In this document: piece after piece, positions 24,810 to 60,900 of the stretch
Layout of the letters: each line of letters opens with the position of its first letter
Position numbering within the stretch: the first letter of the stretch is position 1
NCBI GenBank assembly: GCA_943736015.1
Contig: OX031070.1
Span: 39,920,173-39,984,172, forward strand
DNA length: 64,000 nt
Direction: 5' to 3'
From: Tridacna crocea
Taxonomy: Eukaryota > Mollusca > Bivalvia > Cardiida > Cardiidae
Position numbers and translations under genes: made by a program
The notes under the pieces: generated by a model
What the model saw: only the letters and a program-made list of their open reading frames with translations
Told to the model about the DNA's origin: nothing
Databases searched by the model: none

Positions 24810-24946
24810 ATGGCGTCTAAAGTCACAAGCTCAATCGTTAGCGTGTTATTTGAGTATGATACACCAAGAATTGTACACATTAAAAGCAAGAAAGTTGGAA
24901 TATTTAACAGATTTTTGCAGCTATGTATCATTGCTTACGTTATTGG
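24810..24946 (+). CDS. P2RX4-like: P2X exon 1 (residues 1-46)
   Basis: [20 protein letters not shown], then [10 protein letters not shown] and [10 protein letters not shown] of the first membrane helix. Context caaaATGgcg, donor gtaagt, ends two bases into a Gly codon. Confidence 0.95.
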
Positions 24947-30900: not shown

Positions 30901-33900
30901 AACTTCTCCTCAGAAACTATTGACTGGATTTTTACCAAATTTCACAGGAATGTTCCTTAGGTGGTCCTCTTTCAAATTCCTTCAAATAATTGTGTTCCAT
31001 GAATAATTCTGGTTGCCATGGCAACCAAAGTTAAAAACCTTTAAAAATCTTCTCCTCCCAAACCGCTGATTGGATAGCATTATTATTTTGCAGGAATGTT
31101 GCTTAGGTAGAGGTCTACAGAATTCCTTAAAAGAAAAAGGATCCGTCAAAAAACATGGCTTTTATGGGAGATTCATTTTCCTTTTATGGTAAAAAGTAAA
31201 ATCTTTGAAAAATTTCTTCTCTCAAACTATTGGTTGGATTTCATTGTTGTATTGCAGGTTAGTTCCTATGGTGGTAAGTCTTTACCATACATTCCTGACT
31301 TTTAACGTCCCTAAAGAAGAAGTCTTTGGAAAACACTATTGGAAAAGGAGAAAATGCTGGTAATCAGCATTTTCTCCTTTTCTCACAGTGTTTGCATCAA
31401 AGAGAGAAATCATCATTTCATCAATGTTTAATTTGTTGTCTGCAAATGCTTTCAGTTTGATCACATCCCAAATTTTGTGGTTTGGTAAAGAGTTAAAGAT
31501 GGTTGCTTTACATAATCTATAATCCTTTTCATATAAAACAAGAGAACCTCTGCACTTCTATTAGTTCTGGTAAAGGTTTGTTGAACTACTGGTGACCTTA
31601 GTACAAAGAGGGACAGGGCTTTTACTGTTGTGATAAGGCATTTTGTTAATTTAATCAAACTGATCCTGCAACTTCAATAAAACAATTGCTACAATACATT
31701 TTTTTTTCTGTATCTTGATGTTTCCCCACCCAAAATGGTTTGTAACAAGACCTTCTTTAACTATTACCAGAAGACAAAATTTTTAGAACTGGTCATAATT
31801 GAAAGATGTTGCAGACAACATAATAAATCTTCAAATTAGTAAAACTTTTATCAAAAAGGGTAGATATTATTGTGTAAAACTAAGAAAATGTAGGTTACTA
31901 TTATTTTCTTCTTTTTTCACAATGTTTTTCATAGCTTTTTTTCTTTAGAGACCTAAAATGCAGGAATGAATGGTAATTGTTAAAAACTTCTCTTCACCGT
32001 TACAGAAAAATCAGGCCTGTGGAGCGATACAGGCGCTCAAGCGCCTCTAGTTTTTTTTTTATGATATTGCAGTTTGTCATTGTATATCAGAAAGGGTACC
32101 AGGAATTTGAAAGTTTATCAGGGGTTTGGCCTGCAAGCATACATCAAATATGGGGTGTTGTTCAAAGAACATAATGTACTTTGTTTTATAGAATGTAGGT
32201 TGTCTATGTTTTCAGGTATGCCATTAAATATCAGAAGGTGTACCAGGAGTTTGATCATGTGAGAAAAATGTGTGACCTTCAATTTTCATCAAATACAAGT
32301 TGAATGATGCTTTACTTTGTTTAACCCATTACCACACAATCCCTACTTTTGATGCCCCTGAGAAAGAAGCCTTTGGAAAACATTGTGGGAAAAGGAGAAA
32401 ATGCTGGTAACCAGCATTTTATCCTTTTTCCACAATGTTTTCTACCCTTTCCAAATCAAATTTCGATTTTTCAGTCACATTTATTTTGTCGTCTGCAAAT
32501 GCTTTCAATTTGGACCAGTCTAAAATTTTGTCGTTTGGTAAAGAGTTAATGTTTTGTTTTTTTTTTCAGGTATGCTATTATATATCAGAAAGGGTACCAG
32601 GAGTTTGACAGTGTTCAAGGGGGTGTTACCACCAAAGTGAAAGGCGTAGCCAAAACTAGTGGGCTTACATCAAATACAAGTAGTCGAATCTGGGATGTGG
32701 CAGATTATGTTGTTCCTCCACAGGTAAACTTTCTAAATGTGTACCACATATCATACTTTTAGACTTGTCGATGTGAAAAATTCATGCAAATTACAAACCA
32801 GGTAAGGTTGAAATAGCTAAACTTGTGTTTGAAAGGTAACATTATTGGTAAAAGTGTCCACATCCTCAAGTTTTCAACCACTTTGGCTGAAATTTTAATA
32901 GAATACTTGTAATCAGTCCTACCAAAGGAACTTGTGCATCTGCAAGTTTTCAATATGTTTGGTCAACTATTACATGAGTTTCTTGATCACTTGAGAAGGC
33001 AAATAATTGAAGGTATTTTTCAGTCTTCGACAATCCTAGTTTTGACATAATTTTGTATCTATCTTTGATTCAGAGCTACATATAATATAGTCAACACCTG
33101 TCACATGTGACAATTAAACAGAGCTTATTGACTTTGCTTTTTGATAAATATAGGAAACAGCTCGATAGCTATTGCATTAAAAAGGTATTTTCCACAGTGA
33201 CTTTTCATCAGTCACATTGTCTGAGAAAGGAACAAAAGTTGTCCATAGCATACCTACCAAGTCGGTAGAATTTAGTTCATAATATGTAATAAAGTGGCCA
33301 TTTTAGAATTTTTTATTTTGAATGAAAACTTTGTGTTTACAACTTATAAAGACTATATTAAATTTTTGCTGCATACATAAATATACTAGAAGGTCATCTT
33401 AGTGAGCCAAGGTTACTATCACTACGTGGATCTTACCTTGGCGGATTGAATCCAATTTCAAGATTCATGCAGTGCGCCCTCTATTGGATGCTGGTTATTA
33501 CCCCTCTTTACATCATATTTCTAAAAGCCAATGTAATATTGTTACGAATACACATAAAGCGATAAGCAGACATCCACGTGGGTTTCCATGTTTACCTTCT
33601 ATTCGAAAGGTAGCAACGTTGTTCTATTTTTATCAAAGATGAAATGCTACCAGCGATTTCATTCGTTGCAGTTAGAGCTGGCTGCATCCAATGAAAAAGC
33701 GTATTGGGTGAATGTAAAAATCCAGCTCAATCCGCCAAGGTTAGAGTAACGGTAGTGAATCGTCAGTCTTGGCTTGCAAAGATGACTAGACGGTTAGAGG
33801 CAGTAAAAAAAAAAAATGCGAACTTGATGCTCCAGGAACAGGTCGGTGTCTACTTTAACCCTTTACCACACAATGCTGACTTTTAACAACCCTTGGAAAA

Positions 33901-36900
33901 AAGTCTTTTGAAAACATTGTAGAAAAAGGAGAAAATGCTGGTAACCAGCATTTTCTCCTTTTCCCACAATGTTTTCTACATCATAAAAAAACAGATTACT
34001 CCATTTGAACCCCATTGAAATTGTCGTCTGCAAATGCTTTCAATTTGGACATAGCTAAAATTTTGTTGTCTGGTAAAGTGTTCATGAGATCAATGCTTTC
34101 TCTTCAAAAGAGCTCTTCTTTAGGATCTTTAAAGTCAGCATTGTGTAGTAAAAGTTTAATTGAGCTACCATAGCGCTAGCTGAGTAGAAAGTTTTGTAAA
34201 GAGTTTAGATGCTACATAGCTCAATTAATCCATTACCACACAATCCCTACTCTGAGAAAGAAGCCTTTAGAAAACATTGTGGGAAAAGGAGAAAATGCTG
34301 GTAATCAGCATTTTCTCCTTTTCCCACAATGTTTTCTGCCCTTCCCAGAACAAGTTTCAATTTTTCAGACACCTTTATTTTGTCGTCTGCAAATGCTTTC
34401 AATTTGAACCAGTCTAAAATTTCGTCGTGTGGTAAAGAGTTAAGGATTTTTCCTGCATTTTTTAACTGATGATTTGCCAGTTGGAACCTTCCTTAATACA
34501 ATACATGTAACGCCAATGAAAAACAGAGTAGAAAACAGGATATAAAACACAATACATATAGTTACTTCTCTGGCTATTATATTTTGTAGGAAAACAATGC
34601 TTTCTTTGTCATCACTAATCTTATCATATCAGAAGAACAAAGTCTTGGTTTATGTGAGGAGGTAAGTGTCTTTTCTTACAGAATGGACCATTCCAACAAT
34701 GGATCTGGTTTCATACATTTTTGTTATCCCCCGCCGAAAGGCGGCGGGGGATATGGTAATAGTCTCCGTCCGTCCTTCCGTCATTTCGTCATTCCGTCCT
34801 TCTGTCCTTCCGTCCTTCCGTCCCACATTTTTGTCCGGAGCATATCTCCAAAATATAAAAGCTAGGAACTTGAAACTTTACACACATACAGAACTAATTG
34901 AGGAGAAGTGCAGTGCATAAGAACCATAACTCTATCTTCAGTATTTTTGGAGTTATTGCCCTTTGTACACTTTTTTTCTGGTATTTTTGTCCGGAGCATA
35001 TCTCCAAAAATATGAAAGCTAGATCCTTGAAACTTCACACACATATAGAACTCATTGAGGAGAAGTGCAGTGCATAAGAACCATAACTGTATCTGAAGTA
35101 TTTTTGTAGTTATTGCCCTTTGTACATTTTTACTTTGGATTTTTGTCCGGAGCATATCTCCGAAAGTATAAAAGCTAGGAACTTGAAACTTCACACATGT
35201 ATAGAACTCATTGAGGAGAAGTGCAGTGCATAACAACCATAACTCTGTCTTGAGTATTTTTGGAGTTATTGCCCTTTGTACTTTTTAACTTTGGATTTTT
35301 GTCAGGAGCATATCTCCAAAGGTATAAAAGCTAGGAACTTGAAACTTCACACACATATAGACCTAATTGAGGAGAAGTGCAGAGTACAACAACCATAACT
35401 CTGTCTTCTGTATTTTTGGAGTTACTGCCCTTTGTAAATTTTAACTTTGAATTTTTGTCCGGAGTATATCTCCAAAAGTATAACAGCTAGGAACTTGAAA
35501 CTTCACACACATATAGAACTCATTGAGGAGAAGTGCAGTGCATAAGAACCATGACTGTATCTGAAGTATTTTTGGAGTTATTGCCCTTTGTACATTTTTA
35601 CTTTGGATTTTTGTCCGGAGCATATCTCCGAAAGTATAAAAGCTAGGAACTTGAAACTTCATACACATATAGAACTAATTGAGGAGAAGTGCAGTGCACA
35701 ACAACCATAACTCTGTCTTGAGTATTTTTTGAGTTATTGCCCTTTGTAAATTTTTACTTTGGATTTTTGTCTGGAGCATATCTCCAAAAGTATAAAAGCT
35801 AGGAACTTGAAACTTCACACACATATAGAACTAATTGAGGAGAAGTGCAGTGCACAAGAACCATAACTCTAACTTCAGTATTTTTGGAGTTATTGCCCTT
35901 TGTAAATTTTTACTTTGGATTTTTGTTAGCACATTTCTATTTAGATTCACAGGCTTTTTTTGACTGATTACCCTTTGATGAATTTATCCTGTTCTGGAAC
36001 AAGTGCTAGTTTATTTTTCATACTTATTATCCCCCTGGTGGGGGGGGGGTATGTGGTAATAGTCTCTGTCAGTCCCTCCTTCCATCCCCGATTTTTATCT
36101 GGTAGATAACTTAACCAGTATTTCAGATACCAACTTCAAACTTCGTAAGTGGATAGATCTCGTTAAGGAGGAGTGCAGTGTACATGAATGACAACTCTGT
36201 CCTTCAAATTTTTGGAGTTATTGTCCTTCGTTATTTTTCAGGCTTAATTTTTTTTTCTCTAGCACATAACTTGAAAATTGTTTCACATATCAACTTAAAA
36301 ATTTGTATGTGTCTAGATTTCAATAAGGAGAAGTGCAGTGAAGAAGAATAATAACTCTAACTTTCATAATTTTTGAGTTATTACCCCTTCTTATTTTTCA
36401 GGCTTAACTTTTGTCCAGAACATAATTGAAAAACTATTTCAGATATGAACATGTAACTTAATCGGTGGATGGATCTTACTGTGAGGAGTGCAGTGTACAA
36501 GAACGATAACTCTGGCAATATGATTTTTGAATTATTGCCCTTTGTTATTTTTCAGGCTCAATTTTTGTCCAGGACATAACTCAAAAATTATTTCAGTTAA
36601 TGACATGTTTCTTCATACGTGGATAGATTTTATTGTGCGGGACTGCATTGTACAAGAATGATAACTCTGCTTTTTATGATTTTTGAGTTATTATGTAATG
36701 AAATCCTGTGCCATGGAACAAGGGAGCTTAATGTATAAACTTATCATGGACCAATAACAAAAAGGCCACATGTACATGCAAAACACAATACCTCTTATAC
36801 GTTTGTATCAAAAAAGGTCTTTTTCGGCGGGGGATATCATTTCAATGAAATTGCTTGTTTTGTTTGGTGTAGTCATATCACAGTGTCCAGAGCATCTATC

Positions 36901-39900
36901 CAAGTGCACCTACAATTTCTATTGCCAGCCCTTTCCAGGCAACTTGCTGCTTTTCAATACTTTTGAAGAAAAACTGTAAGAGGAGTTCGTGACACAAAAT
37001 TACAAGTATTTTGTACTCCGGCAGACACACAGATGGATGGAAGGACACACAGAGAGGCAGGCTGATTCCAGTTTACCCCCGAAAACATTTTGCAGGGATG
37101 TAATAATGAAAACCTATGTAAGCCTGTGACCCCCTGGACAGGATCAATTTTGACCTAAGGGCTATGATTTCAAGCATCTTAGGGTAGGTTCATTAGGTGA
37201 AGCTGCATGCGAATGTAAATCCAGGTAAAACCTGCCACCCTTGGGGCAAAGCCAATTCTGGCCAAAGAGCCATTATTTGAAGAAATCCAGTAGAAGGCCA
37301 TTAGATGAAGGTATATGAAGTTTGGTTAAAATTCCATGGGTACTTTCAGAGAAGATGTTTGATAAAATAGTTAACACAAGCATGCAGGGATGCACACATG
37401 GGCACATCCAAGCACACATACACAACAAACACAGGGTCATGGCATAAGCTATCTGGTGTTTGGCTAGTGGAGCTAAAAACACTTGGAAGTTTGTCAGAAT
37501 GTTTGTTTTGATGATATGGCTTGCAACACGCGAAAAGGGGCATTCGGATATTTGCGTAAAGTGTCGTCTCGGATTAGCCTTGATACAAGTTCAGTATGTA
37601 AAAAACTTGGTCAGAATGTTTCTCTTGATGACATCTTGGAAGAGTTTGGTAAAACCTTGTGTACAAGCTAGTCTTGAAATTTTCAGTCCAGTAACTATGA
37701 AAGCTTGTTAGAATGTTTGTCAAAATATCAAAGAGATTTAGAAAGGATCATATTTTGTCTAAAAGGTCACATAAGCGACTTTAGGGCCATTATGGCCCTC
37801 TTGTTAAAAAAGGTTTTCAAAAGCTGCCAACTGCAGGGAAACAAAAAGTGGTGTTTATGTGGGAGGGGGTTAGGATCATTGTGGTTGTCTTTTTTTGCAG
37901 GATTTAAGCGTTCCTGGGGCTGACTGTACTGATGACAAAAGTATCTGTGTAGAAGGGCAGCCATTTTTAACAGGAGATGGTATGTTTACAATTTCAATGT
38001 CAGTGATAGTTATCTCTTTACTTATTCCTTTCCCAAACAAGCCCTTGTTTTTACGTGTCTGCTGTACAAATTTTTTGAAAACACTGTGGGAAAAGGAGAA
38101 ATTGCTCATAACGAGCAATTTCTCCTTTTCCCACAGTGTTTTCTGCCAGTTAGGATAATTGTCTGCCTTTGTTATGAAAGTTGAAATTGTCGTCTGCAAA
38201 CTCTTTCAGTTTGGAAGAGTCTAAAATTTGTCGTTTGGGAAAGGGTTAACAACAGAATTTTAGACTCATTGGAATATTGAAAGCTCTTGCAGACAACAAA
38301 TTCTGTATGGCTCAAATTGTGAAATTTCCGTTTGTAATGGTAGAAAAAAATGCAGAAAAAGGAGAAGAAGCGTTACCAGCACTTTCTCCATTTCCCAAAA
38401 TGTTCCCAAAAGGGTTCTTGCTCAAGGTGGTTGAAATTGCAGATTGTGTGGAAAAGTGTTTTACTGCAATTTAACTTGTATGAACTCGCTACCAGTTGAC
38501 AAAATTTTAGACATGTCTAACTTAAAAGCATTTGTAGATCACAAAATAAAGGTGACTCAAAAATTTACCAGCATTTTCTTCCTTTTCCTAGATGTTTTAT
38601 GAGAGTTTCTTCCTCTGGGTCATAAAAACAAACGATTGTTTGGTAAAGGGTTATTAAAAAAAGAAAAAAAAAAAAAAACGCTAAGGGAAGTGGTAAAGAG
38701 TTAACCCTTTACCACAAAATGCCAACATTTAACAACCCTGGGAAAAAAGCCTGATGAAAGCATTATTGGTAACCAGCATTTTCTCCCTCTCCCACAATGT
38801 TTTCTACTCTGGCAAAATCAAAATGAATGAGCTGCGTGTTTTGCCACAAACTATTTTTCACAGTGAACACTTTTGTATAGCAGTAAAGACCTTTTTAGCT
38901 ATTGTGATCGGTCAGGGTAGGTCGTCCGTCTGTCCTCCTAAACTAACGATCAGATTTCAGTCAAACTTCACAGAAATGATCCTTAGGTCATGCTCTTTCA
39001 AAATACTTCAAAAAATTGAAATCAGTGAAGAACTCTGGTTTTTTTCATAAAATAGATGTTTTTATGTTTTTTGTTTTTTTTGCAACAACCACATATTTTT
39101 TCAGTAAGCACTTCTGTTTCAAATTTTAATCATAATGTTTTTTCAGGATTTATGACTGGAAAATGTATCAACTCTACACGATATCCAGGAAAGAAGAGTT
39201 GTGAAATACATGCTTGGTGTCCAACAGAGGATGGCAGGATGAAGCCGTGAGTAAATTGACTCCTTATCACTCAGTCCCGAGTTTTAACGACCCTCATGGA
39301 GAAGCATTTTGAAAGCATTGTGAAAAAAGGAGAAAATGCTGGTAACCAGCATTTTCTCCTTTTCCCACAATGCTTTCTAACCTTTCAAAAACAAATTTCA
39401 TCATATTGGACACTTTTAATTTGTTGTCAGCAAAGGTGTTGAATTTGGAAGAGTTCAAAATATGGTTGTGTGGAAAAGGGTTAACCCTTTACCAAACAAT
39501 CCCAGGTTTTTACGACCCCGAGATAGAAGCCCTTTGAAATCATTCTAGGAAAAGGAGAAAATGCTGGTAGCCAACATTTTCTCCTTTTCCCACAATGCTT
39601 CCAATCCCGCTGGAAACAAATTTCAATATTTGAGTCACATTTATTTTTGTCATCTGCAAATACTTTCAGTTGGGACCAGTCTAAAATTTTGTCATTTGGT
39701 AAAGAGTTAACTGACCTGCTCTCAACCCCTGGGCTGTTATGGACCATGTATGGACAGTGTAGATCAAGATCTGACTGCTTAGAATATGCAATCTGGTCTT
39801 GGATCTTCATTGTTTGATAAGGAGATATACTTTCTCTTAGAAATAATTTTGGAATAGCAAAATTTGGATTTTGGGTTTGAAAGTTTTATTTTACTTACTT

Positions 39901-42900
39901 AGCAGTTTAAGGGGTTTGTCTGTACTTAACAAATTTCATGATTTTTACAGCATGTAGAAAGAAGGTTATTAAAAACATTGTAGGCCAAGGAGAAAATGCT
40001 GGTAACCAGCATTTTCTCCTTTGCCTGCAAGTTTTCCTACCACTTCAAAGACAATACATGAATATACATTTAGTATATCATCTACAAGTGATTTAACTTT
40101 TTACCAAATGACAACAATTTAAAAGTGTTGAAAATACTGTCAAAGGACAGATTAATGTGACTTAAATATGGATTTTATCCGTGATATTTTAGGAAACATT
40201 GTTGAAAAGGGACAAAATGCTGGTTAGCAACATTTTGTCCTTTTCCGGCAATGTTTTCAAAAGCTTTCCCTGCAAGGTCATAACAACTTGGGATTATGTA
40301 GTGATGGGTTTAGAATAAAAAGCCTGCTGTTTTGACTGTAATTCTATTGATTTTACCCTGTGATTTTTTTTTGGACGGTAAACAGTTTATATAATGAACC
40401 ATATACCACACATTGTAGACTTTCAACGACTCTAGGAAAGAAACCTTTTGAAAACATGGTGGGAACAGGAGAAAATGCTGGTAACCAGCATTTTCTCCTA
40501 TTCCCACAATGTTTTCTTAGAAAAATTGCACCATTTGAACCATATTGAAATTTTCATCTGCAAATGCTTTCAATTTGGACAAGTCTAAAATGTTGTTATC
40601 TGGTAAAAGGTCAAACGAGACAATTAGTTGATGTGCTGTATGTTACAAAAAGTGTACTACATGTGTGTTACGGATCATGTATCGAAAATGTATTTATAAT
40701 TGAGTGATAAGGACGTTTATGTAAAATTTTATATTTCCTTAAGAAATTGGATCTTTTCCCCCTTTCTCCTTTCAGGCCTGACCCTGCTGCCATTGCTGAA
40801 GCAGAAAATTTCACTGTATTTATCAAAAACAACATCGAATTTCCAAAGTTTGGTGTGAAAAGGTAAGAGCTTTTTTAAAAGCTATACCAAACAGCTAAAT
40901 TTTAGACTGGTAGACAACAAAATAAATGTGACTGAAAATTGGAATTTATTTTTGGAAGGATAGAAAACCTTTACCAAACTTCTACATTTTAGGCTGGTCC
41001 AACTTAACCCTTTACTCCATAGATACTTATTTCTATGCATTGCTTGTAGGAGCCTTTGGAAAACATTGTGGCAAAAGGTGAAATTGCTCGTGTCGAGCAA
41101 TTTCATCTTTTGTCACAATGTTTTCTATGCTATCAAAAGGTGTCATATACACATAAGATAGTTTCATCCTTGGTGTTATTAAGGGTCAATTTGAGACACC
41201 ATAGAAATGCCTTATGGGGTAAAGGGTTAAAAAGCATATGCAGATGATATAATAAATAAGATGGAAAAATTAACATATGTTTTGGGAAGGGTAGTAAATA
41301 GTGTGAAAAAAGGAGAAAATGCTGGTTAATTCTCCTTTCCCACAAGATTTCAAAAAGCTTCTATCTTGGGTTCTTAGCTGGCTTATGTCATGCACCAGTG
41401 TTCACCATGCCTCTGTTCTACCGTCCACCTGTGCAGGAATTAACTTTTATTGCAAACATCTGCTCTAATACTACACATCAAATTTTGATGAAACATCACA
41501 GAAATGATCCTGTCAGAATTTCTTGAAAGAATTTTTTTCTTAGAAAAAGAAATTCTGGTTGCTATGGCAACAAATCTGAAAGATATGGAAAATGTTCGAA
41601 GACTTGTCTGAAGCCGTAAGGCCCAGGGCTACCAAATTTGGCATGTAGGGGGTCACAAATTTTACATTGGCTTGCATAGGTAAAATTTAAAAATCTTATT
41701 ATATCTAGCCATAAGGCCTTGGGCTAAAAAATTCTTCTTCTAGCTTTATCTAGTGAGTATCTACCAAGGGGGCCCAAGTTACAGCCCTGAGGTCAAAATC
41801 GGCTCTATCATGGGGATCACAAGTTTTAGATTGTATATATGCTGAAAAGTTTGTAAAATCTACTTATTACCTACCATAAGACCTAGGACTACAAATTTTG
41901 ACCCTTGTCTCAGGGGTCTTATGTTTAACAGGGTCCTTTATTGAGGAAACCTGGAAAATCTTCTTGCTTACAACCACACATTCTAGACCTGTATTCTTTT
42001 ATAATTATGGGGTTTTATCTTGTGGACCTCTAACAGGATTCAAGTAATTATAGCTCTGTGGTCAAAAGTGGCTTTGCCCTGAGGGTAATTGCTGTCTCTG
42101 TCTGTTGAGGTTTTATAGAGAAAACTGAGTATGTTTAACCCATTACCAAACAACAAATTTTAGGCTGGTCCAAATTGAAAGCATTTTCAGATCACAAAAT
42201 GAAAGTGACTGAAAATTTGAAATTTGTTTTGTGAAAGGTAGAAATCATTGTGGGAAAAGGAGAAAATGCTGGTTACCAGCATTTTCTCCTTTTCCCACAA
42301 TGTTTTCTAAAGGCGTCTTTCTCAGGGGCATCAAAAGTAGGGATTGTGTGGTAATGGGTTAAACCAAATGGTCAGGTAGTGTAATTTTTGGCATGTAAGG
42401 TTTTTACTTATTAGCCAGTGGAGCAACACAGGGCCATCATGAAACTGTGGTTTAAAAGTCAGGGTTGTTTGGCAGAAGGTTGAGTTTTTATACACTAGTT
42501 GATCATTTTCCACAATGTCTTCTACTATTCACAAAACAAATTTCAAATATTCAGTCACTTTTATTTTGTCGTCTGCAAATGTTTTCGATTTGGACAAACC
42601 TAAAATATTACGGTTGTTTGCTACTGAGTTATGATATAAATTTTGCAAACAGTGGGTACATTACCAAAAAGAAACTTTTTTTTTCTTATTCTAAAGTCTT
42701 TGCCAAATAGTTATGATCAAGAAAAAGACTTTTGAAAGAAAAGGGAAAAATGCATGTTACCAGCCTTGTTGCCTTTCCCCGAATGTTTAATATCTATTTA
42801 TAGGCAATTTCTATCTTTTGAACCAAATTAATTTGTAATCTACAAAAGCTTTTAACTTGGAATGAATGAAAAAATTTGTTTAAATGATTTTTGCAGTGAG

Positions 42901-45900
42901 AAAAAAGATTTAACCCATTACCACACAATTCCTACTTTTGACGCCCTTAAGAAAGAAGCCTTTTGAAAACACTGTAGGAAAAGTAGATAATGCTGGTAAC
43001 CAGCATTTTCTCCTTTTCCCACAGTGTTTTCTACCCTTCCCAGAACAAATTTCAACTTTTCAGTCACCTTTATTTTGTCATCTGCAAATGCTTTCAATTT
43101 GAACCAGTCTAGAATTTTGTCGTGTGGTAAGGAGTTAAACAGAGAAGTGAATCAGTTTCAGAAAAAAATGAACAAGTCAGGAAAATTTTGAAAACGGAGA
43201 AATTGTACAAAAACACAGTCTCTTATGATAGCATCTGAAGACAACACAATTGAAATTGGCACAAATAGATTAAATATTTTGAAAGGGTAGAAGACATTGT
43301 TGGAAGAGAAGAAAATACTGACAAGCAGCATCGTCTTCTTTTCTCGTAGTGTTATCAGTATGTTTCTTCCTCATGTTGCGTATATGGGATTGTTTGGTAA
43401 AGGCTTTGATTGTAGGTTTCATCTTCCCCTATGCTTACAGACGCAATGTCCCCTCTTTCGTAAACGAATCCTATTTGAAAAGCTGCCGCTTTGACTTTGG
43501 CGCGAATGACCAATGTCCAATCATGGAACTGAAGACCATAGTTGCAGGGGCAGGCTCCAGCAATTTTAGCAGTATAGCTAGACAGGTATCATAATTATGA
43601 GGTGGAGGTAGTGTTGTAGTCTGACTTTAAGTAGTTTTAGATTTCATAATCCACTATTGTGTATTTAGATTTTAACCACTTACCTATGTTTGCATGACCC
43701 TGTTGAAATGCATCTTCGCGAGCCAAGGTTATGATCACTACCTGGATCTTACCTTGGTTGATTGAGCCGGATTTCGAGATTTCCACAACACGCTCCCTAT
43801 TGGATACTGCTTATTATCTCCCTTTAGATGTTGTTTCTTATAGCCAATGAATTGTCGTTTTACAAACCGCTTACGAATACAATAATTCAACATGAAGCAA
43901 TAACCACAAACATACTTCGACATTCCATGGTCAAGTGCTTGGATATAGCCTAAAACATCTGATAATTGATTGGTCACATTGAAACCTTATGTAAATATTT
44001 TTCGTCTATGTTTTCTTCGGTAATAAATCATTACAAATCTTGCACACATCCACGAAGGTATTTATATTTACCTTCTATTTTTATTGCGACCCTGTTCTAT
44101 TTTTGTCAAAGATGAAATGCTATGAGCAATTTGATTTGATGCAGTTAGAGCTAGCTGCAACCAATGAAAATGCAACTTGGGTAATCTTCGAAATCAAGCT
44201 TAATCTGCCAAGGGTAGAGTGGCGTAGTGGATTGTAACCCTTGGCTTGCAATGATGGTGGAAATGCTGATAAGTAGCATTTCTACAACATTCTCAAGCAT
44301 TAACCCTTTACCAAACGACCAAATTTTTGAATGGACCACAAAATAAATATGACTCAAAAATTGAAATTTGCTTTCAGCAGGGTATAAAACATTGTGAGAA
44401 AAGAAGAAAATGCTGGTTACCAACATTTTCTCCTTTTCCCACAATGTTTTCAAAGGGCTTCTTTCTCAGGGTTGTAAAAACCAGGGATTGTGTGGTAAAG
44501 GGTTAAGGTGCCAAGTTGGTACATTTTCATTTTGTAAAAAAGACATAGATAGTCTGTTTTTAGCTCACCTGAGCACAACGTGCTCAAGGGGAGCTTTTAG
44601 GATCACCCGGTGTCCGGTGTCCGTCGTCCGTCGTCAACAATTCTTTAAACATCAACTCCTCCTAAACCGCTGGGCGGATTTGGACCAAACTTGGCAGGGA
44701 TGTTCCTTGGGAGGTCCTCTTTAAAAATTGTTCAAAGAATTTGATTCCATCAAAAACTCTGGTTGCCATGGCAACGAAATGGAATTTTTTAGCAAATTCT
44801 TTAAAAATCTTCTCCTCTGAAACTGCTGGTCGGATTTTGAAATAATTTCACAGATATGTTCCTTGGGTGACCCTTTTCAAAAATTGTTCGTGAAATTGTG
44901 ATTCGTCAAAAAATGTGGCTCTGGTGAATGGGGGCTTCTTGCACTATACAGAAATGAAGGAATTCTTAAAAATCCTTCTTCTCTGAAACCGCTGGTCAGA
45001 TTTTGAAATAATTTGACAGAGTTGTTCCTTGGGTGACCCTTTTAAAAAATGTTCGCGAAATTTTGATTGGTCAAGAAACATGGCTCTGGTGAATGGGGGC
45101 TTCTTGCACTATACAGAAATGAAGAAATTCTTAAAAATTCTTCTTCTCTGAAACAGCTGGTTAGATTTTGAAATAATTTCACAGACTTGTTCCTTGGGTT
45201 ACCCTTTTCAAAAATTGTTCGCGAAATTTTGATTGGTCAAGAAACATGGCTCTGGTGAATGGGGGCTACGTGCACTATACAGAAATGAAGAAACTCTTGA
45301 AAATTCTTCTTCTCTGAAATGGCTGGACAGATTTTGAAATAATTTCACAGAGATGTTCCTTGGGTGACCCTTTTCTAAAATTGTTCGCAAAATTTTGATT
45401 GGCCAAGAAACATGGCTCTAGTGAATGGGGGCTACTTGCACTATATGGAAATGAAGAAATTCTTGAAAATTCTTCTTCTCTGAAACCCGTGGTCAGATTT
45501 TAAAATAATCTGACCGAGATGTTCCTTGGGTGACCCTTTCCAAAAGCTGTACATATAATTTTGATCCGTCAAGAAACATGGCTCTTGTGAATGGGGGCTA
45601 CTTGCACTATACGGACATGATGAAATTCTTTAAAATTCTCTTTCTCTGAAACCCCTGGTCAGATTTTGAAATAATTTCAGAGAGATGTTCCTTGGGTGAC
45701 CCTTTTCAAAACTTGTTCGTAAATTTTGATCCATCAAGAAACATGGCTCTCGTGGATGGGGGCTACTTGCTCTTATACAGAAATGAAGAATTCTTAAAAA
45801 TTCTTCTTTTTGAAACTGATGGTCAGATTTCGAAATGACTTTTACAGGTGACCTTTTGAAAATTGCTTGGCAAAATTATAAATTTGGTTCCAATGTTTCA

Positions 45901-48900
45901 ATACCTCAAAAGAAAAATAGACTATGGTCATCTCAAAAATTCAGGTGAGCGATCCAGGGCCATCTTGGCCCTCTTGTTTGGTTCACCTAAGCACGAGGTG
46001 AGGTATTGTGATCGGTCGTTGTCTGGCATACGTCCGTCCATCTGTCTGTCCACAATTCCTTTAACACCGTCTCCTCCTAAGCCGCTGGGCCTATCTTGAT
46101 TGAACTTGGCAGGGATGTTTCTTGTTCTTAAAGAGATTGAATTCCACCTAGAACTCTGGTATGGTAATAGAAAGGGGAAAAAAATAGGCAAATCTTTGAA
46201 AATCTTCTTCTCTGAAACAAGAAGGCGTAGAGCTTGCTTTGATATTTAGTATGTAGCATCTCCTAATTTACCTCTACCAAGTCTATTCATATGATGCCCC
46301 TGGGGTCAAAAATATGGTGGGGAAAAAAATCCTGGTGACTAGCATTTTCTCCTTTTTATATACCTGAGGTGTCATATTATGTTACGGCCCAGGTTGCCCG
46401 TATGTCTGTCAGTCTGTACGTCCTCATTAGTTATTTCTTGAGTGGGCAACCCTTCGTTCAGTTTCTATTGGAATAAGTTCAAACTTACCACAGCGGAATC
46501 TCTATGATGTGTAGTTGTGCATGTGACTCTTAAAATTTTGATTTCTGTAGGTATTCTAGATTTTGACCCATTTCTTTGGCAAGCCGCTTCAGGAGCATAT
46601 GCGCTGCTCTGCAAAGCTCTTGTTCCATAATGTTCCATACCCTTTCAGAAACAAATCCTACTGTTCGAGCTTTATCTACCATTAATCTGTTTTTAGCAAA
46701 TGCTCTTAATTTGGAAATGTTTAGAATTTTGTTGTTTACAAAGGTAAACTCAAACACAAAAAGACTTAAAGTAGACTTTTTAATCCTTTACTCCATAGAT
46801 ACTTGTTTCTATGCATTGCTTGTAAGAGCCTTTGGAAAACATTCTGGCAAAAGGTGAAATTGCTCATGAAGAGAATTTCACCTTTTGTCACAATGTTTTC
46901 TATGCTATCAAAAGGTGTCTTATACACATAAAAAACAGCTTCATACTTGCTGTTTTTTAGGGTCAATTAGAGATACCTTACAAATGCCTTATGGGGTAAA
47001 GGGTTTATCTATTTTCAGCAAATGCTCTTAATTTGGACATGTTTAGAATTTTGTTGTTCACAAAGGTAAACTCAAACACAAAAAGACTTAACCCTTTACC
47101 CCATAAGGCATTTCTATGGTATATATACTTGACCCTAAATAACAGTAAGGATGAAGCCATTTCTTATGTGCATATGACACCTTTTGATAGCATAGAAAAC
47201 ATTGTGACAAAAGGTGAAATTGCTCATCATGAGCAATTCCACCTTTTGCCAAACCATTTACACCATAAGGCATTTCTATGGTATATCTACTTGACCCAAA
47301 ATAACAGTAAGGATGAACCATTTCTTATTTGCATATAACACCTTTTAATAGCATAGAAAACATTGTAACAAAAGGTGAAATTGCTCATCACGACCAATTT
47401 CACCTTTTGCCACAATGTTTTCCAAAGGCTCCTACAAGCAATGCGTAGAAATGAGTATCTATGGAGTAAAGGGTTAAAGTAGACTTTTTAATGGAGAAAA
47501 GAGGGTAGTACTACACAAAAATCCTAATGATTCATTTCAGAAGGGGTATTTTTGGCTTCAAAAACGATACTGAACTGAGTCGATGCAGGTATAACAAAGA
47601 TGACCCAGTAGATAAATTTTGTCCCATTTTTGTGTTGAAGGACATCGCCCTTGAAAGTGGAGTAACAAATTTCTCTACTTTAAGTGTAAAGGTAAATACT
47701 CGCTAAATGCTAGCATAATTATTTGAAAATCCTGCAAGATTTGCATGTGCCAAGATTCAAAAGCTATAATTATTTGGCTTTTTAACAAAATGATAAAATT
47801 TTGGAATCGAACAAATTGAAAGTATTTGCAGATGACAAATTAACCCTTTCCCAAACAATCCCTGGTTTTTACGGGTCAGGAATAGAAGCCTTTTGAAAAC
47901 ATTGTAGGAAAAGGAGAAAACGCTGGTAACCAGCATTTTCATTTTTTCCCACAATGTTTTCTACCCTATCATATAGAAATATAATCTTTTTAGCAACTGT
48001 TAATTTGTCATCTGCAAAATACTTCCAATTTGGTCTGGTCCAAAAGTTGCCGTTTTGGGAAAAGGTTAAATGTAGCTCAAAGAATGATGATTTCTGTCCT
48101 CGACAGGAAAGGAAACATTAAAGAAAAAGGAGGAAAAATTAATGCTGGTTACGGGCATTTTTTCCTTTTATCCACAATGTTTTGAAACACTATTTTCTTC
48201 ATGGTTGTCAAAACTTGGCAAAAGGTCAATGGAATGAACATGTGTGCTTCCATGTAACCAGAATTAGGATCCTTTACATACACAAGCATTAGATACACTA
48301 AATTTAGGAACATCCCCTAGCAGTTCCCAAATGCAATTACCCTGTTACCAGTCTACCCTATGTTTTTATGCCTTTACACCTACTTTGAAAATGACTTTTT
48401 TTTTTAATATAGTATTGAACGTAATGAATAATCAGTGATTTGGTGGCTGATTAATATTCATATATTAACTCATTAACCCATGAGAAAAATTTAGACTGGT
48501 CCAAATTGAAAGCATTTGCAGACAACAAAATAAAAGTGACTGAAAAATTGAAATTTGTTCTGGGAAGGGTAGAAAACACTGTGGGAAAAGGAGAAAATGC
48601 TGGTTACCAGCATTTTCTCCTTTTCCCACAGTGTTTTCAAAAGGCTTCTTTCTCAGGGGCGTCAAAAGTAGGGATTGTGTGGTAATGGGTTAATGGAACG
48701 TGATAACCATGGCCCTCGTTTACAAAAATTCAGAGCATCTTATTTTTGTATACAGGAAGAACAGGTAAGTTATCGGACAATTTTAGTTAAAATGTATATT
48801 AAAAAGGTTTAAAACTTTTACAAGCTATGGATTCTACTTAGCGAGGAGTGGTGTAATGGATAAAATCCAAGCCTCTCAAACTGGCAATCCTGGTTTAAGC

Positions 48901-51900: not shown

Positions 51901-54900
51901 CTAATTTTAGCATCAGTTCCTGTGCAAGAAATGTCTCGGTTCTTTTTTCCCATTTTTCACAAGGATCAATGTGCAATCTTGTTTTATGCCAGACAAATAT
52001 GAATGAAACTACTAATTACAAATACAAACACCTACTGTGATATCATGAAGAACAATGTAACCATTGATTTAGCATAACTCTTTACCACACAATCCCAACT
52101 TTTAACGACCTTGAGAAAGAAGCCTTTTGAAAACATTGTAGGAAAAGGAGAAAATGCTGGTAACCAGCATTTTCTCCTTTTCCCACAATGTTTTGCCCCT
52201 ATCAAAGACATAAATCATCATTTGAACAACATTTAAATTGTTAATTTCAGATGCTTTCAGTTTTGTCCAGTCCAAAATTCTGTCGCGTGGTAAAGGGTTA
52301 AAAAAAAAACAATTGCTTGATTGAAAAAAAAAGGTTTTCCTGTGACTCGAACTTGACTTGCTATGACCACTGCACCACAGCACTATTTACAAGATTTAGT
52401 TGGAATTTACTACTAGGTGACTGCTTCGCCCCTGTTATCCCTATTTGAATGTTTTGAACTGATCCAGTGTTTGTAAACAAAGGCCACAATTATCGCATTT
52501 TGTTAGTACCTAGCAAATCATCTTCGCGAGCCAAGTTTACGTGGATCTTACCTTTGCTGATTGAGCCCGATTTTGAGATTCCTTTGATGCGCCCTCTATT
52601 CGATGCTGGTTATTACCCCCCTTTACATCATACTTCTAAAAGTCAATGAAATATCGTTTTACAAACCGCTTACGAAAACACATGAAGCGATAAGCAGACA
52701 TCCACGTGGGTTTCCATTTTTCCCTTCTATTCGAAAGGTAGCGACCTTGTTCTATTTTTATCAAAGATGAAATGCTATGAGCGATTTCATTCGTTGCAGT
52801 TAGAGCTGGTTGCATCCAATGAAAAAGCGCGTATGGGGGAAATGTAAAAATCAAGCTTGATCCGCCAAGGGTAGAGTAATGTAGTGAATCATCAGCCTTG
52901 TCTTGCGAAGATGCTAGCAAATACGATTGTGTAAACAAGCATGTCCATCCTCTTCCATGTATGTACATGTATACATGTAACAATGCCAAAGAAAATCACA
53001 AAATAATTATAAGTACCTGATTCTTGTACATTTTTCTCACAATTTCTACCCTTCCCAAAACAAGTTTCAATTTTTCAATCACTTTTATATTTGTCATCTG
53101 CTAATGCTTTCAATTTAGGATAGTCTAAATAAAGTCGTTTTGTCTGGTAAAGAGTTAAGGGAGAACATGTAATACTGCAAGATTTATAGAAGTGGAACTA
53201 AAGTGGATATTACAGCAGTATAGATTTACCTTTTACCAGACCATGAAATTTTAGACTGGTCCAAAAGCTTTTTAACTCTTTACCAAATGACAAAATTTTA
53301 GACTGGTCCAAATCGAAAGCATTTGCGTATGACAAAATAAAAGTGACTGAAAATTTGAAATTTGTTTCGTGAAAGGTAGAAAACATTGTGGGAAAAGGAG
53401 AAAATGCTGGTTATCAGCATTTTCTCCTTTTCCCACAATGTTTTCTAAAGGCTTCTTTTTCGGGATTAAGACCACGAATGTATCTCTAATAATGAGATGT
53501 AAACCAGACAGGGTAGAAAACATGGCGGGGGCAAAGAGAAAATTGCTGTTTACCAGCATATTCCTCTTTTTCCACAATGGTTTCAAAAGCCCTCTTAATT
53601 AGGGTTCTTTAAAGTCAGTATAAGTAAATGTAGATGAAAATAATCAGACTCGTCAGAAAAACAAAAATTTGAAGAATAAATCTTTGTCTTATCTGAACTT
53701 ATGACTACCTGATATGATTATAAGTACATATTTTGCGTATGTTTTGGGACACCTAAAGAATTGGGACACCATCGAAAATTGCAAAAATAATTATTTTTTA
53801 TGACCCAAACATTTGGGACATACTAAAAAATACAAAATAAGACCATTCTTTGTCTTGTTCTTCAAGATTTTGTTACTGTGAAAGTAACAGAACTCATGAT
53901 TGGCTAAACCAAATGGTTTAGCCAATCAGAAGTTCTGTTACTTTCATATTGACAAAATTCCGAAGAATAAGACTGTTCTTAAGAATGGTTGGTGAATAGG
54001 GACCCTGTGTTTTCTTGTTCGAAGAATTGGGAAAGTGAATATCTATTTTAACACTTTCCCAAATGACAAATTTTAGACTGTCCCAAACTCAAAGTGTTTG
54101 CAGATGAAAATTTTTGAATTCGATGAGAATGGCAGAAAGTTTTCCAATAGGCTAGAAAACACTGTGGGAAAAGGAGAAATTGCTCATTATGACCATTTTC
54201 TCCTTTTCCCACAGTGTTCTCTAAAGACTTGTACTGCAGACACATAAAATCCAGGACTTGTTTGGGAAAGAGTTAATTAAGAAAAAGAATTCTTTCTATC
54301 CGTTTGATATCCTTTGTTTGCAAATATTTATTTCACGTAGTTTTATTTCTACTGATAGAAAATGCATTCCATGTTTCAGAGGCCTTCAAAGCAGTCACTG
54401 ATATCCAGCTTTATGGATGCATCTTTAACTGTTTACTAAATGACAAAATTTTGGAATGGTCCAAATTGAAAGCATTTGCAGATGACAAAACAAACATGAA
54501 TCAAAAATTGAAATCAGATTTGGAAAGTAAAAAGCATTGTGGGAAAAGGAGAAAATGCATTTTCTCCTTTTCCCACAATGTTTTCAAAAGCTTCCTTTTT
54601 CAAGGTCATTAAAAGTCAGGATTGTGTGGTAAAGAGTTAATAAGTAAACTTTCATTATCATAACTGAAGTAATTATGAAATTGCCATGAAAACCATTTAA
54701 ACATTTTTTTTATTAGCTCACCTGAGCACAAAGGGCTCAGAGTGAGCTATTGTGATAGTGCCGAGTCTGTCGTCCATCGTCAACTTTTCACCTTTTGTAC
54801 GCTCTAGAGGCCACATTTTTCATCCGATACTCATGAAACGTGGTCAGAATGTTTGCCTCGATAAAATCCCGGAGAAGTTTGAAATTGGGTCATGTCAGGT

Positions 54901-57900
54901 AAAAAACTAGGTCACTATGTCAAATCTTAGCAAAACCTTGTGTACGCTCTAGAGGCCACATTTTCAGTCCGATACTCATTAAAGTTGGTCAGAACATTTG
55001 CCTTGATAAAATCTCGGACGAGTTTGAAAATGGGTCATGTTGGGTAAAAAAACTAGGTCAATAGGTCAAATATTATAAAAAACCTTGTGTATGCTCTGGA
55101 GGACACATTTTCAGTCTGATACTCCTGAAACTTGTTCATGATATTTGTCTCGGTGATACCTTGAATGAGTTTGAAAATGGGTCATGTGGAGTCAAAAACT
55201 AGGTCACTGGGTCAAATATTAGAAAAACCTAGTGTACACTCTAGAAGCTACATTTTCTGCTGGATACTCTTCAAACTTGTTCATAATGTTTGTTTTGGTG
55301 ATGTCTCAAAAGAGTTTGGATAATTGTCGGGTCCAAAACTAGGTCACTTGGTGAAATCTTAGAAAAACCTTTTGTACGCTGTAGAGGCCATATTTTCAGT
55401 CAAATACTCATGAAACTTGGTCAGAATGTTTGCCTTATTGATATCTCAAAAGTGTTTGATAATGGTTAATGTCTGATAAAAAACTAGGTCACTGGGAAAC
55501 TAGATTGAAAAAGGTTCATGTTTGGTCAATAGACTCAGGTGAGCGATTTCAGGGCCATCATGGCCCTCTTGTTATGATACTTATAATTTTGTAGAACATA
55601 ATATTTTCTAATCATCATTTCAGTCTAGAAAAGTAAGACCCAAATAATTCCATTTTCAAGTCTTTATATCCCTGCAAAAAGGATGGTTTTGGGGGTATAC
55701 TGGAATCAGCCTATCTGTACGTGTGTCTGTCTGTGTGTCCGTCTGTGTACAAAATCAAAGCGCTGGCGGGGATATTAACCCATTGAAACACAATTCCTAC
55801 TTTTGACGACCCTGAGAAAGAAGCCTGTGGAAAACATTGTGGGAAAAGGAGAAAATGCTGGTTACCAGCATTTTCTCCTTTCCCAAAAATGTTTTCTACC
55901 CTTCACAAAACAAATTTCAAATTTTCAGTCACTTTTATTTCGTTGTCTGCCAATGCTTTCGATTTGAACAAGCCTAAAATATTGTCATTTGGTAATGAGT
56001 TAAGTCACATTCATTGACGGCTCTAGTTTTTTTTTTGTCTGGCTTATTTCATCAATGCGGATAGTGTGGATCAAAGATCAGACTGTACATTTTATGCAGA
56101 TATCATCTTGGTCTAATACTGGTGACATAGGAAACTTGTTTTGAAAAGGTTTCAATGGAGAGCATTTTATTTCCAAACAGGGAGGTGTTATACAAATCAT
56201 TATAACTTGGGACTGCGATCTTGACCACAGTGAAGAGAAATGTCTCCCGAAGTATAGTTTTAGAAGGCTGGATAGTGATGCGGACATTTTGTCTAAAGGT
56301 TATAACTTCAGGTAAGGCATCATTTTATCATGCCGTAACCCATTACCATACAATCCCTACTTGTAACGAGCCTGAGAAAGAAGCCATTAGAAAACATTGT
56401 AGGAAAAGGAGAAAATGCTGGTAACCAGCATTTTCTCCTTTTCCCACAATGTTTTCAAACCTTCCAAAATAAAAAATTTTATTTTTTATTCACATTTACT
56501 TTGTCGTCTGCAAATGCTTTCAATTTGGACAAGTCCAGAATTTTGTCGTTTTGCAAAGCTTTAAACTATGAATGAGGTCATCTGTCTTGGCTGTGGAAAT
56601 CTACCATTGATCCTTAAAAAAGGCAAATTTCATGTGTTGGTTATGAAAGAGTTCACATCATGGAAGCAAATACAAGAAAAAAGCAATTCCTTGTCTAAAA
56701 TAAGTAATTGAATCAACACCTTCAACCATTTTGTTTTTCACGGAAGTGTAACTGTTTAGACCTGTTGCTTTTAGCTCACCTGAGCACAAAGTGCTCAGAG
56801 TGAGCTATTGTGATAGAGCTGTGTCTGTCGACCGTCGGCCACATTTTTCGTCCGATACTTGTGAAACTTGGTCAGAATGTTTGCCTGAATGAAATCTCGA
56901 ACAAGATCGAAATTGGGTCATGTCGGGTCAAAAGCTAGGTCACTAGGTCAAATCTTAGAAAAACCTTGTGTATGCTCTAGAGGCCACATTTTCAGTCCGA
57001 TACTCATGAAAGTTGGTCAGAATGTTTGCCCTGATAAAATCTCAGATGAGTTCGATAATGGGTCATGTCTGGTTAAAAACTAGGTCACTAGGTCAAATCT
57101 TAGAAAAACCTTGTGTATGCTCCAGAGGCCACATTTTCAGTCTGATACTCATGAAAGTTGGTCAAAATGTTTGCCTCAATGATATCTCGGACAAGTCTGA
57201 AAGTAGGTCATGTCAGATCAAAAACTAGGTCACTTGGTCAAATCCTAGAAAAACCTTGTTTGCTTTTGGAAACATTGAAGTAAAAGGAGAAAATGCTTAC
57301 AACCAGTATTTTCTCCAATTTCCCGCAGAGTGTAGAGGCCACATTTTCATTCCAAAACTCTTGAAAGTTGGTCAGAATGTTTGTCTTGATGATATCTTGG
57401 ATGAGTTTGAAAATGGGTCATGGCAGGTCAAAAACTAGGTCATTATGTCAAATGTTAGAAAAAAAAAATTATGCTCTAGAGGCCACATTTTCAGTCTAAA
57501 ACTCTTGAAAGGTGGTCAGAATGTTTGTCTTGATGATATCTCGGACAGGTTTGAAAATGGGTTATGTTGGGTAGAAAACTAGGTTACCATGTCAAATCTT
57601 ACAAAAAACCTTGTATACGCTCTGGAAGCCACATTTTCAGTCCAGCACTCTTGAAAATTGGTCTGAATGTTTGCCTTGATAATATCTTGGATGAGTTTGA
57701 AAATGGGTCATGTTGGGTCAAAAACTAGGTCAATAGGTCAAATGTTATAAAAACCTTGTGTATGCTCTGGAGGACACATTTTCAGTCTGATACTCCTGAA
57801 ACTTGTTCATAGTATTTGTCTTGGTGATACCTTGAATGAGTTTAAAAATGGGTCATGTGGAGTCAGAAACTAGGACATTGGGTCAAATATTAGAAAAACC

Positions 57901-60900
57901 TTGTGTGCACTCTAGAGGCCACATTTTCTGCCTGATACTGTTCAAACTTGGTCAGAATGTTTGTTTTGGTGATGTCTCAGAAGACTTTGATATTAAGTGA
58001 TTGTCGAGTCCAAAACTAGGTCACTTTGTCAAATCTTTGAAAAACCTTTTGTATGCTGTAGAGGCCACATTTTCAGTCCAATACTCATGAAACTTGGTCA
58101 GAATGTTTGTCTAATGGATATCTCAAAAGTGTTTGATAATGGGTAATGTCTGATAAAAAACTAGGTCACTGGGAAACTAGATTGAAAATGGTTCATGTTT
58201 GGTCAATAGACTCAGGTGAGCGATTTCAGGGCCATCATCGCCATCTTGTTTCTTTCAGATATGCTCATTATTTTAAAGATGAAAATGGTACGGAGTATAG
58301 AACATTATTTAAAGCATATGGTATCAAGTTTATTATAACGCTACAAGGCCAGGCTGGACAGTTTCGTATCGTTCCTCTCATGACCAAATTTGGAAGTGGA
58401 TTGGCCATTCTTGGAATTGTAGGTATCTCTAGCTATCCATCTTGCATAGATTTTACTTAACAACCAGCAGTTTTCATGACCTTGAGTGAGAAGGCTTTGG
58501 AAATATTGAAGTAAAAGGAGAAAATGCTTGCAACCAGTATTTTCTCCTTTTTCCCGCAGAGTGTTACAATCTTTCGTAGACAATTTTTACCATTTAATCC
58601 TTTACTAAACAATGCCGACTTTTGACGCCCCTCTGAAGGAAGCCTTTTGAAAAAATTGTGGTAAAAGAAGAAAATGCTGGTAACCAGCATTTTCTCCTTT
58701 TCCTACAATGTTTCCTACTCTATCAAAGAAAATTTACACCATTTGAGCCACACTAAAATTGTTATCTGCGAATGCTTTCAGTTTGGACAAGAGTAAAATT
58801 TTGTCGTCTGGTAAAGGTTTAAGTCATTTTTGAATTGTTGTCTGCAAATGTGTTGAATCTGAATGAATTTAAAGGTCTGTCATTTTGTGAAAGAAAAGAA
58901 AACATTGTAATTTAAGGGAGTTTATGCCAAGATATATCACCACATAGGGAACACTTAAGATTATATACATGTTGGTTTATTTATGTGGATGCCCTAGATA
59001 AGAGAATGTGCATTATGGGAAATACAGAAGGCTGTGTTCTAGTTCACAACATTATGACACATTATTTGCTTTGTTTGTTCATTTGTTTGGTGTTTAACTC
59101 TTTACCACATGACAAAATTTAGACCAACCCAAATTCAAAGCACTTGCAGAGAACAAATTGAATGTGACTCAAAAATTGAAATTTGGTTTGGGAAGGTAAG
59201 AAAACACTGGGAAAAGGAGAAAGTGCTGGTTACCAGCATTTTCTCCTTTTCCCACAATGTTTTCAAAAGGCTTCTTTCCCAGGGTCGTTAAATGTCGGGA
59301 TTGTGTGGTAAAGAGTTAACACAGACAGCATCATCAATTCAATGTATTTCATTTGCTGCAAGCACACCCAATATGAACTTAGATGTTGACAGGCTCTAAA
59401 ACACCATTCATTCATTCATTTAACACAGTGTTAATCCATTACCACACAATCCCTACTTTTGACGCCCCAGAGAAAGAAGCCTTTTGAAAGCACTATGGGA
59501 AAAGGAGAAAATGCTGGTAACCAGCATTTTCTCCTTTTCCCAAAGTGTTTTCTACCCTTTCCAGAACAAGTTTCAATTTTTCAGTCACCTTTATTTTTTT
59601 GTCTGCAAATGCTTTCAATTTGGACCAGTCTAAATTTTTCTCATGTGATAATGGGTTAAACACTATTTCATTTGTAAAACAGTGGCCAGTGCAACATCCA
59701 CATAGGGTTCCTTTACCAGTACTGGGCACAAAATTCTTTGCAAGCACCAGGCTGCTTTTCTAGACCAATATTAAATATGATAAACAATCTGTAATGTAGA
59801 CTTTTGACGCTCCTGAAAAAGTAGCCTTTTGAAAACGTTGTAGGAAAAGAAGAAAATGCTGGTAACCAGCATTTTCTCCTTTTCCCACAATGTTTGCTTC
59901 CCTTTCCAAATCAAATTTCAGTTTTTAATTCATGTTTATTTTGTCATCTGCAAATGCTTTCAATTTGGAATGTAGACTTTTGACGCTCCTGAAAAAGTAG
60001 CCTTTTGAAAACATTGTGGGAAAAGAAGAAAATGCTGGTAACCAGCATTTTCTCCTTTTCCCACAATGTTTACTACCCTTTCCAAATCAAATTTCAGTTT
60101 TTGATTCATGTTTATTTTGTCGTCTGCAAATGCTTTCAATTTGGACTATTCCAAAATTTCGTCGTTTGGGAAAGAGTTTAAGACCTTGAGAAAGAGGCCC
60201 ATTTTCAATTCCTTTGAAAACAAATTTTACGGTTGAGCCACATTTAATATGTCAACTGCAAGTTCACTCATTTTAGACAAGACTTTAAAGATGCCTGTCT
60301 ACAGCCGGTGAGCAGAAACGCTGTTAAATTTCAAAAAGAAAAATAGAATGGTACAGAAATCTGTCCTTTGTGTACACTAGGATAAATTACTGACATTTAT
60401 CGTGTAAATGAAAAAAGAAACACGGGGGTTTGTGTGAAAAACCGAAAATTGGCCAGAAGAAAACTGGCTGACGATCGAGGCTGTAAACAATGGCAGTGAC
60501 TCACAGAAATTTATCGTTGGTTTCCGCCTAGAGTCGGATACAGTGTAACTTACATATAGTTTTGATCTCCGTCTAAAAATAGAGGCTGCATCAGAGAAGC
60601 ATCCATTTTCCTTTATTTACCGCATCAAGGCCAAGGTCAAATATAGTCACGTTACGGAATGCATGATCATCATTTGAATCTACCCGAGTGTATAACGGAT
60701 ATCGAAAATCTTCGATTCAAAATCCGGAAACGACCAGTCTGTTTACATTGAAGGCCGCAAGTCCGCGAAATGCATTTTCTATCAGGCGTAATCTAAGCAA
60801 CCTTGCAACCGTCAGGCGCAGTATTTGGCATAGATATATAAGAATGACTATATTTTGATAAAATAAAAACAAAATGAGTTAAAACTGGCTTAAAATGAGT

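Follow-up and report, generated by a model that had tools for sequence, protein, structure and literature searches.

Splicing is known to alter the function of several vertebrate P2X receptors (P2X7, P2X2, P2X5 and P2X6) by skipped exons, a retained intron, the added exon N3 or other first and last exons, and the P2X7K form of P2X7 swaps its first exon for an alternative exon 1' (PMC9329894, PMC3360091; published work is cited here from excerpts of the papers). In gastropods, two Lymnaea stagnalis transcripts, LymP2X and contig FX193730, were reported to differ over 150 nucleotides or 50 amino acids, and an "alternatively spliced exon" was suggested (PMC3510196). The Aplysia californica forms AcP2X and AcP2Xb were described as two splice forms of one gene, 92% identical and different in 147 bases; both pass ATP currents, those of the second form being much smaller (PMC7943599). 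A single P2X gene was reported for the gastropods that were examined (PMC7943599, PMC3510196). Here we describe a P2X receptor gene in a 64,000-nucleotide stretch of the genome of the bivalve Tridacna crocea (contig OX031070.1 of assembly GCA_943736015.1, positions 39,920,173 to 39,984,172; hereafter the window), in which exon 7 is present as two diverged copies, 7a and 7b. As judged from the sequence, transcripts of this gene would use 7a and 7b alternatively, a reading to which we give a probability of roughly 0.8. In AMPA receptors (flip/flop) and in voltage-gated sodium channels, tandem homologous exons that are used singly tune the gating of the channel. Those pairs belong to other channel families and are backed by RNA, whereas the P2X pair is a prediction from genome sequence. 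The vertebrate P2X variants differ from it in kind, since the excerpts available on them include no internal swap of homologous ectodomain segments (PMC9329894, PMC3360091).

The P2X gene lies on the + strand of the window, where nine constitutive exons were placed in addition to the exon 7 pair. They span from the ATG at 24810 to 61200, past the second transmembrane segment (TM2) and into the early C-terminal tail, and the gene continues 3'. The bait used in tblastn for exon 1, which holds most of the first transmembrane segment (TM1), was the N-terminus of human P2X4. The placed exons are:

24810..24946, + strand: P2X exon 1, with the ATG, the cytoplasmic N-terminus and most of TM1 (tblastn with P2X4 bait, phase, alignment to P2X chains)
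32570..32723, + strand: P2X exon 2, with the phosphate lysines (phase check, alignment to solved P2X chains)
34590..34661, + strand: P2X exon 3 (sequence, phase check)
37901..37979, + strand: P2X exon 4, head (phase check)
39147..39246, + strand: P2X exon 5, head (phase check)
40776..40862, + strand: P2X exon 6, with its 3' end two bases into an Arg codon
43441..43585, + strand: P2X exon 7a, 145 nucleotides, the canonical dorsal-fin exon, with Asn at the position of rat P2X4 N204
47541..47691, + strand: P2X exon 7b, 151 nucleotides, the diverged dorsal-fin exon, with Gly at the position of rat P2X4 N204 and a loop between the paired cysteines longer by 2 residues
56181..56311, + strand: P2X exon 8, with the GYNFR of the ATP site
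58259..58418, + strand: P2X exon 9, with KAYGIKF and the start of TM2
61099..61200, + strand: P2X exon 10, with the remainder of TM2 and the beginning of the C-terminal tail

The joined model has 389 residues with 7a and 391 with 7b, contains no stops, and has AG/GT borders and a consistent phase at every junction. For both versions the closest solved match found by phmmer was P2X4 chain 9bqh, which we take to be human P2X purinoceptor 4, aligned over nearly the full length (E 3e-119 with 7a, 5e-116 with 7b). Pfam PF00864 scored 414 bits with 7a and 403 bits with 7b against a cut-off of 27, exon 1 being left out. Each version has 13 cysteines in total; aligned to 9bqh, both have all ten cysteines of the ectodomain as well as TTKVKG, NFT, GYNFR and KAYG, the motifs of the ATP site. 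By these signatures the encoded protein is a P2X receptor, and an ATP-gated current is predicted for it. Among the remaining placed exons, none has a second copy that is intact within the 64-kb window. A second P2X gene and a third exon 7 were also considered, and tblastn and blastn with exons 2-10 recovered neither in the window, the only additional matches being two decayed copies of exon 2 described below.

The original prediction had placed two intact exons here, about one third identical in protein and alike in their cysteines, an early N-glycosylation site, CPI, LK and NFS, and the comparison bears this out. Both exons have AG/GT borders and open frames, and 18 of the 49 aligned residues are identical (37%). 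The alignment has the cysteine pair, CPI and NFS in both, with the early sequon being NES in 7a and NDT in 7b and the LK motif lying in ELKT and VLKD, respectively. When the whole window was searched by tblastn with each isoform (exons 2-10), the other exon 7 was recovered at E ~2e-4, and nothing further appeared below E 0.5 over the exon 7 part. Taken alone, 7a matches PF00864 with 32.7 bits (E 5.3e-8) and 7b with 23.8 bits (E 2.8e-5), the latter below a cut-off of 27 that is curated for whole proteins. Identity between the two exons by codon position is 22/49 at the first, 27/49 at the second and 19/49 at the third; that the third position is the least alike fits a protein under selection, although with such small numbers it is by itself a weak sign. 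The paired cysteines are separated by 11 residues in 7b and by 9 in 7a and in the zebrafish, human and tick receptors. The comparison chains 3i5d and 4dw1 are presumably from zebrafish and 5f1c from tick. Common flanks of 7a and 7b were sought as a trace of the duplication, and gave partial matches only, in both orientations, that resemble interspersed repeats. Pattern scans of the IMG/VR and GTDB contigs, which may contain eukaryotic contamination, reach close relatives only; they gave 8 and 51 matches, with no relative among them.

The frame of the gene restricts how the two exons can be joined. Exon 6 ends two bases into a codon and exon 8 opens a codon, while the lengths of 7a and 7b are both 1 modulo 3. 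As had been claimed, the splice into each exon falls two bases into an Arg codon, and each exon closes with a complete codon. It had also been claimed that splicing 7a to 7b leads to a stop within 11 codons and that skipping both exons breaks the frame as well; we find the stop after 10 codons in the first case and after 8, counting the split Arg, in the second (exon 6 joined to exon 8). Since double inclusion and double skipping both run into early stops, a channel is expected only from one exon 7 at a time. 7a and 7b are homologous neighbors with equal phases whose double use or double skipping breaks the frame, as is expected of a mutually exclusive pair. The donor site of 7a, which agrees with the consensus at 6 of 9 bases, is weaker than that of 7b with 8 of 9, the range for exons 2-6 and 8-10 being 6-8 of 9. 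With 4 kb between the two exons, steric hindrance is unlikely to be what would keep them apart. Pairing of repeats in the RNA was considered as another possible means of exclusion, and no pairing looked specific: inverted repeats bracket 7a alone (13), 7b alone (48) or both (61), and like repeats occur throughout the region. No structured RNA in the window matched Rfam at the gathering scores.

In the explanation that we favor, exon 7 would have been duplicated in tandem within a single P2X gene, and each transcript would use either 7a or 7b, giving two subunits that are identical outside the dorsal fin and its neighboring strands. Products with both exons or with neither would be removed owing to their early stops. 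Inclusion of 7a would then give an ordinary receptor. Inclusion of 7b, with Gly in place of N204, Glu in place of Y213 and a loop longer by two residues, may give a receptor of lower ATP efficacy or potency, either alone or mixed with 7a in trimers.

What such a swap might do can be read from work on the dorsal fin. The assignment of exon 7 to this part of the receptor in the original prediction holds, as the exon encodes the dorsal fin and the adjoining strands, and so shapes the mobile wall of the ATP pocket. ATP binding moves the fin upward and the left flipper downward (PMC5801290). An alanine scan of R203-L214 in rat P2X4 left R203A and N204A essentially non-functional, although rescued by ivermectin, and implicated L214 in ATP recognition; N204 is present in 7/7 rat P2X subunits, and N202A of rat P2X2 is listed as non-functional (PMC4232510). 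At the position of N204 our phmmer alignments have Asn in 7a and Gly in 7b. Both exons have the same distance from this position to the first cysteine of the pair as the zebrafish, human and tick receptors, and all of these sequences but 7b have Asn there; for tick, the phmmer alignment sets the Asn at position 204, and this placing was used in the hand alignment. We treat N204 as a conserved gating residue and not as a criterion of the P2X family. The loss of N204 in 7b is the strongest functional clue at the locus, and it was absent from the original prediction. 7b also has Glu at the position of Y213 and retains L214. Because of the changes at N204 and Y213, the longer loop between the cysteines and the small number of invariant residues kept, 7b is predicted to be weakly ATP-responsive. 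That the 7b subunit is weaker than 7a, in the sense of a lower ATP efficacy, is to us a proposition of slightly less than even odds. In a review of P2X structures, ATP efficacy was proposed to be governed by the loop of the dorsal fin, and an exchange of this loop between subtypes was suggested as a test (PMC5801290). If spliced as predicted, the exon pair would be a natural swap of this kind, with N204 to Gly included.

The gastropod splice forms invite a direct comparison. The Lymnaea transcripts appear to come from one P2X gene, and they differ markedly in a block (150 nucleotides) near the size of 7a and 7b (145 and 151); the comparison is one of descriptions, and the excerpts mention neither a duplicated exon nor a frame logic (PMC3510196). 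The Aplysia pair resembles ours in block size and in identity, and no genomic exon pair is described in the excerpts (PMC7943599). In the window gene, the exchange of one exon 7 for the other gives 92.0% identity over ungapped columns and 91.6% with gaps, for the part that lies in the window. Exons 2 (154 nucleotides), 7 and 9 (160 nucleotides) are near 147-150 nucleotides and go from phase 2 to phase 0, and only exon 7 among them codes for cysteines. From the size, the 92% figure and this last feature, the Lymnaea and Aplysia forms are probably the same exon 7 swap. Differences in the dorsal fin between Aplysia and Lymnaea were read by the authors as an effect of species, marine versus freshwater (PMC7943599); the same pattern would arise if the two studies had compared receptors with different exon choices.

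The claim that no described P2X receptor was known with this arrangement needs correcting in part. Each of the two gastropod papers reports, for a single gene, transcripts with a differing block of about 150 nucleotides; the duplicated exon itself was not found in the open-licence literature that was searched. Among the matches listed for open-licence PubMed Central, seen in excerpts, none describes a mutually exclusive or duplicated exon pair in a P2X gene, and two papers on early P2X receptors contain neither "splice" nor "exon" (PMC3853471, PMC2633282). Gastropod P2X splice forms of about 150 nucleotides are already published; the duplicated exon and the loss of N204 in 7b appear to be new. 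If true, the arrangement would show how animals with one P2X gene gain receptor diversity, and it would give a genomic basis for the splice forms of two snails. A wider reading is possible, though on balance doubtful: in molluscs the exon 7 swap may be an ancient efficacy switch that replaces a gene family (7a strong, 7b weak or modulatory), older than the split of gastropods and bivalves and partly behind the difference between Aplysia and Lymnaea in dorsal fin and ATP sensitivity.

Several observations speak against alternative use of the two exons or against a weaker 7b subunit. The authors of the Lymnaea work assign the 50 residues that differ to the "cysteine rich head domain" and not to the dorsal fin (PMC3510196). 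The Aplysia difference is termed a "deletion/insertion", with no position stated in the excerpts, and the currents of AcP2Xb are said to be "very similar" to those of the first form save in size and stability, with the data not shown in that paper (PMC7943599). N204A in P2X1 is listed with a mere 3.5-fold shift of the half-maximal concentration (EC50) (PMC4232510), and the loss of N204 may be offset by further changes in 7b. Finally, zebrafish, human and tick share 15 invariant positions, of which 7b keeps 6 in the hand alignment, or 7 with the gap placing of MAFFT, and 7a keeps 10.

This last count, together with the loss of N204 and Y213, is also what would be expected if 7b were a duplicated exon being lost, rarely or never spliced, its frame still open through recent descent from a working copy. 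The same gene holds two relics upstream of the real exon 2 that serve as a local measure of such decay. They match it with 87% identity (46 bases) and 90% identity (39 bases), yet deletions and stops have disrupted both:

32073..32123, + strand: decayed copy A, start of exon 2 (relic; sequence comparison)
32216..32300, + strand: decayed copy B of exon 2 (relic with internal deletion and stop; sequence comparison)

By the evidence of these relics, exon duplication has occurred more than once in this P2X gene. For 7b, such a decay has to be reconciled with a divergence as strong as 18/49 residues and 19/49 third positions in an exon whose frame, splice sites, cysteine pair, CPI, L214 and sequons are intact. 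A Jukes-Cantor estimate on third positions gives ~1.26 substitutions per site between 7a and 7b, or 0.63 per branch. Neutral decay was simulated with one substitution model, no indels and 1500 runs per setting, starting from 7a, from back-translated human P2X4 and from back-translated tick P2X. A run counted as being as good as 7b when it kept an open frame and the motif of sequon, Cys and CPI and had a family score at least that of 7b. This score was averaged over alignments to the human, zebrafish and tick stretches, a choice that favors the null for the human and tick starts. At 0.63 substitutions per site this happened in 0/1500 runs from 7a, 2/1500 from human and 0/1500 from tick; at 0.2, in 0.8%, 3.7% and 2.8% of runs, respectively. 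On these figures neutral decay of 7b from a working exon is unlikely, although the motif was picked after the exons had been viewed, the model is a single one free of indels, and a recent loss of a 7b that had long been functional is still compatible with the result. Gastropod P2X genes, moreover, do give pairs of transcripts with a differing block of about 150 nucleotides. All told, we regard a 7b on its way to being lost as improbable.

Two further explanations are weaker than this. 7b might be a poison exon, whose inclusion with 7a leads to an early stop and less receptor, its protein sequence being irrelevant; the stop 10 codons into the 7a-7b joining suits this, yet such an exon has no need of P2X-like protein, 7b by itself reaches E 2.8e-5 with PF00864, and the joining 6-7b-8 is in frame. 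We consider it very improbable. Dense repeats on both sides of 7b could point instead to an exon of another P2X gene, or to a paralogue's exon misplaced by an assembly error. Against this, tblastn gave no second copies of exons 3-6 and 8-10 in the 64 kb, nor of exon 1 with the P2X4 bait used; the window is free of N letters (0), and just one P2X gene was reported for the gastropods examined. An origin outside this gene is, in our estimate, marginally less probable again than a poison exon. Alternative use of 7a and 7b is then the reading that we retain.

Several other features were seen in the window. Matches to the sodium:solute symporter family PF00474 lie on the + strand at 11399-11719 (21.8 bits, slightly short of the 22.8 cut-off) and 16023-16418 (38 bits), which suggests the presence of an SLC5-like gene upstream of the P2X gene; 20479-20787 looks like the C-terminal end of the SLC5-like gene and has no Pfam match. 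A near-palindromic repeat with the arms GGAGAAAATGCTGG and CCAGCATTTTCTCC, for example at 42240-42310, occurs in dozens of copies, with 31 and 28 exact arm cores in the window, and is probably a family of miniature inverted-repeat transposable elements. Within the P2X gene, arrays of a 145-base unit lie in 54790-58170, between exons 7b and 9, and arrays of 156- and 166-base units are found at 34827-35926 and 44794-45836. Two minisatellite arrays at 7325-7552 and 7998-8187, with a unit like GGACATCTGCCCCC, lie in opposite orientation ~450 bases apart. A tRNA-Met was called at 5047-5121 on the - strand and is possibly part of a tRNA-derived repeat.

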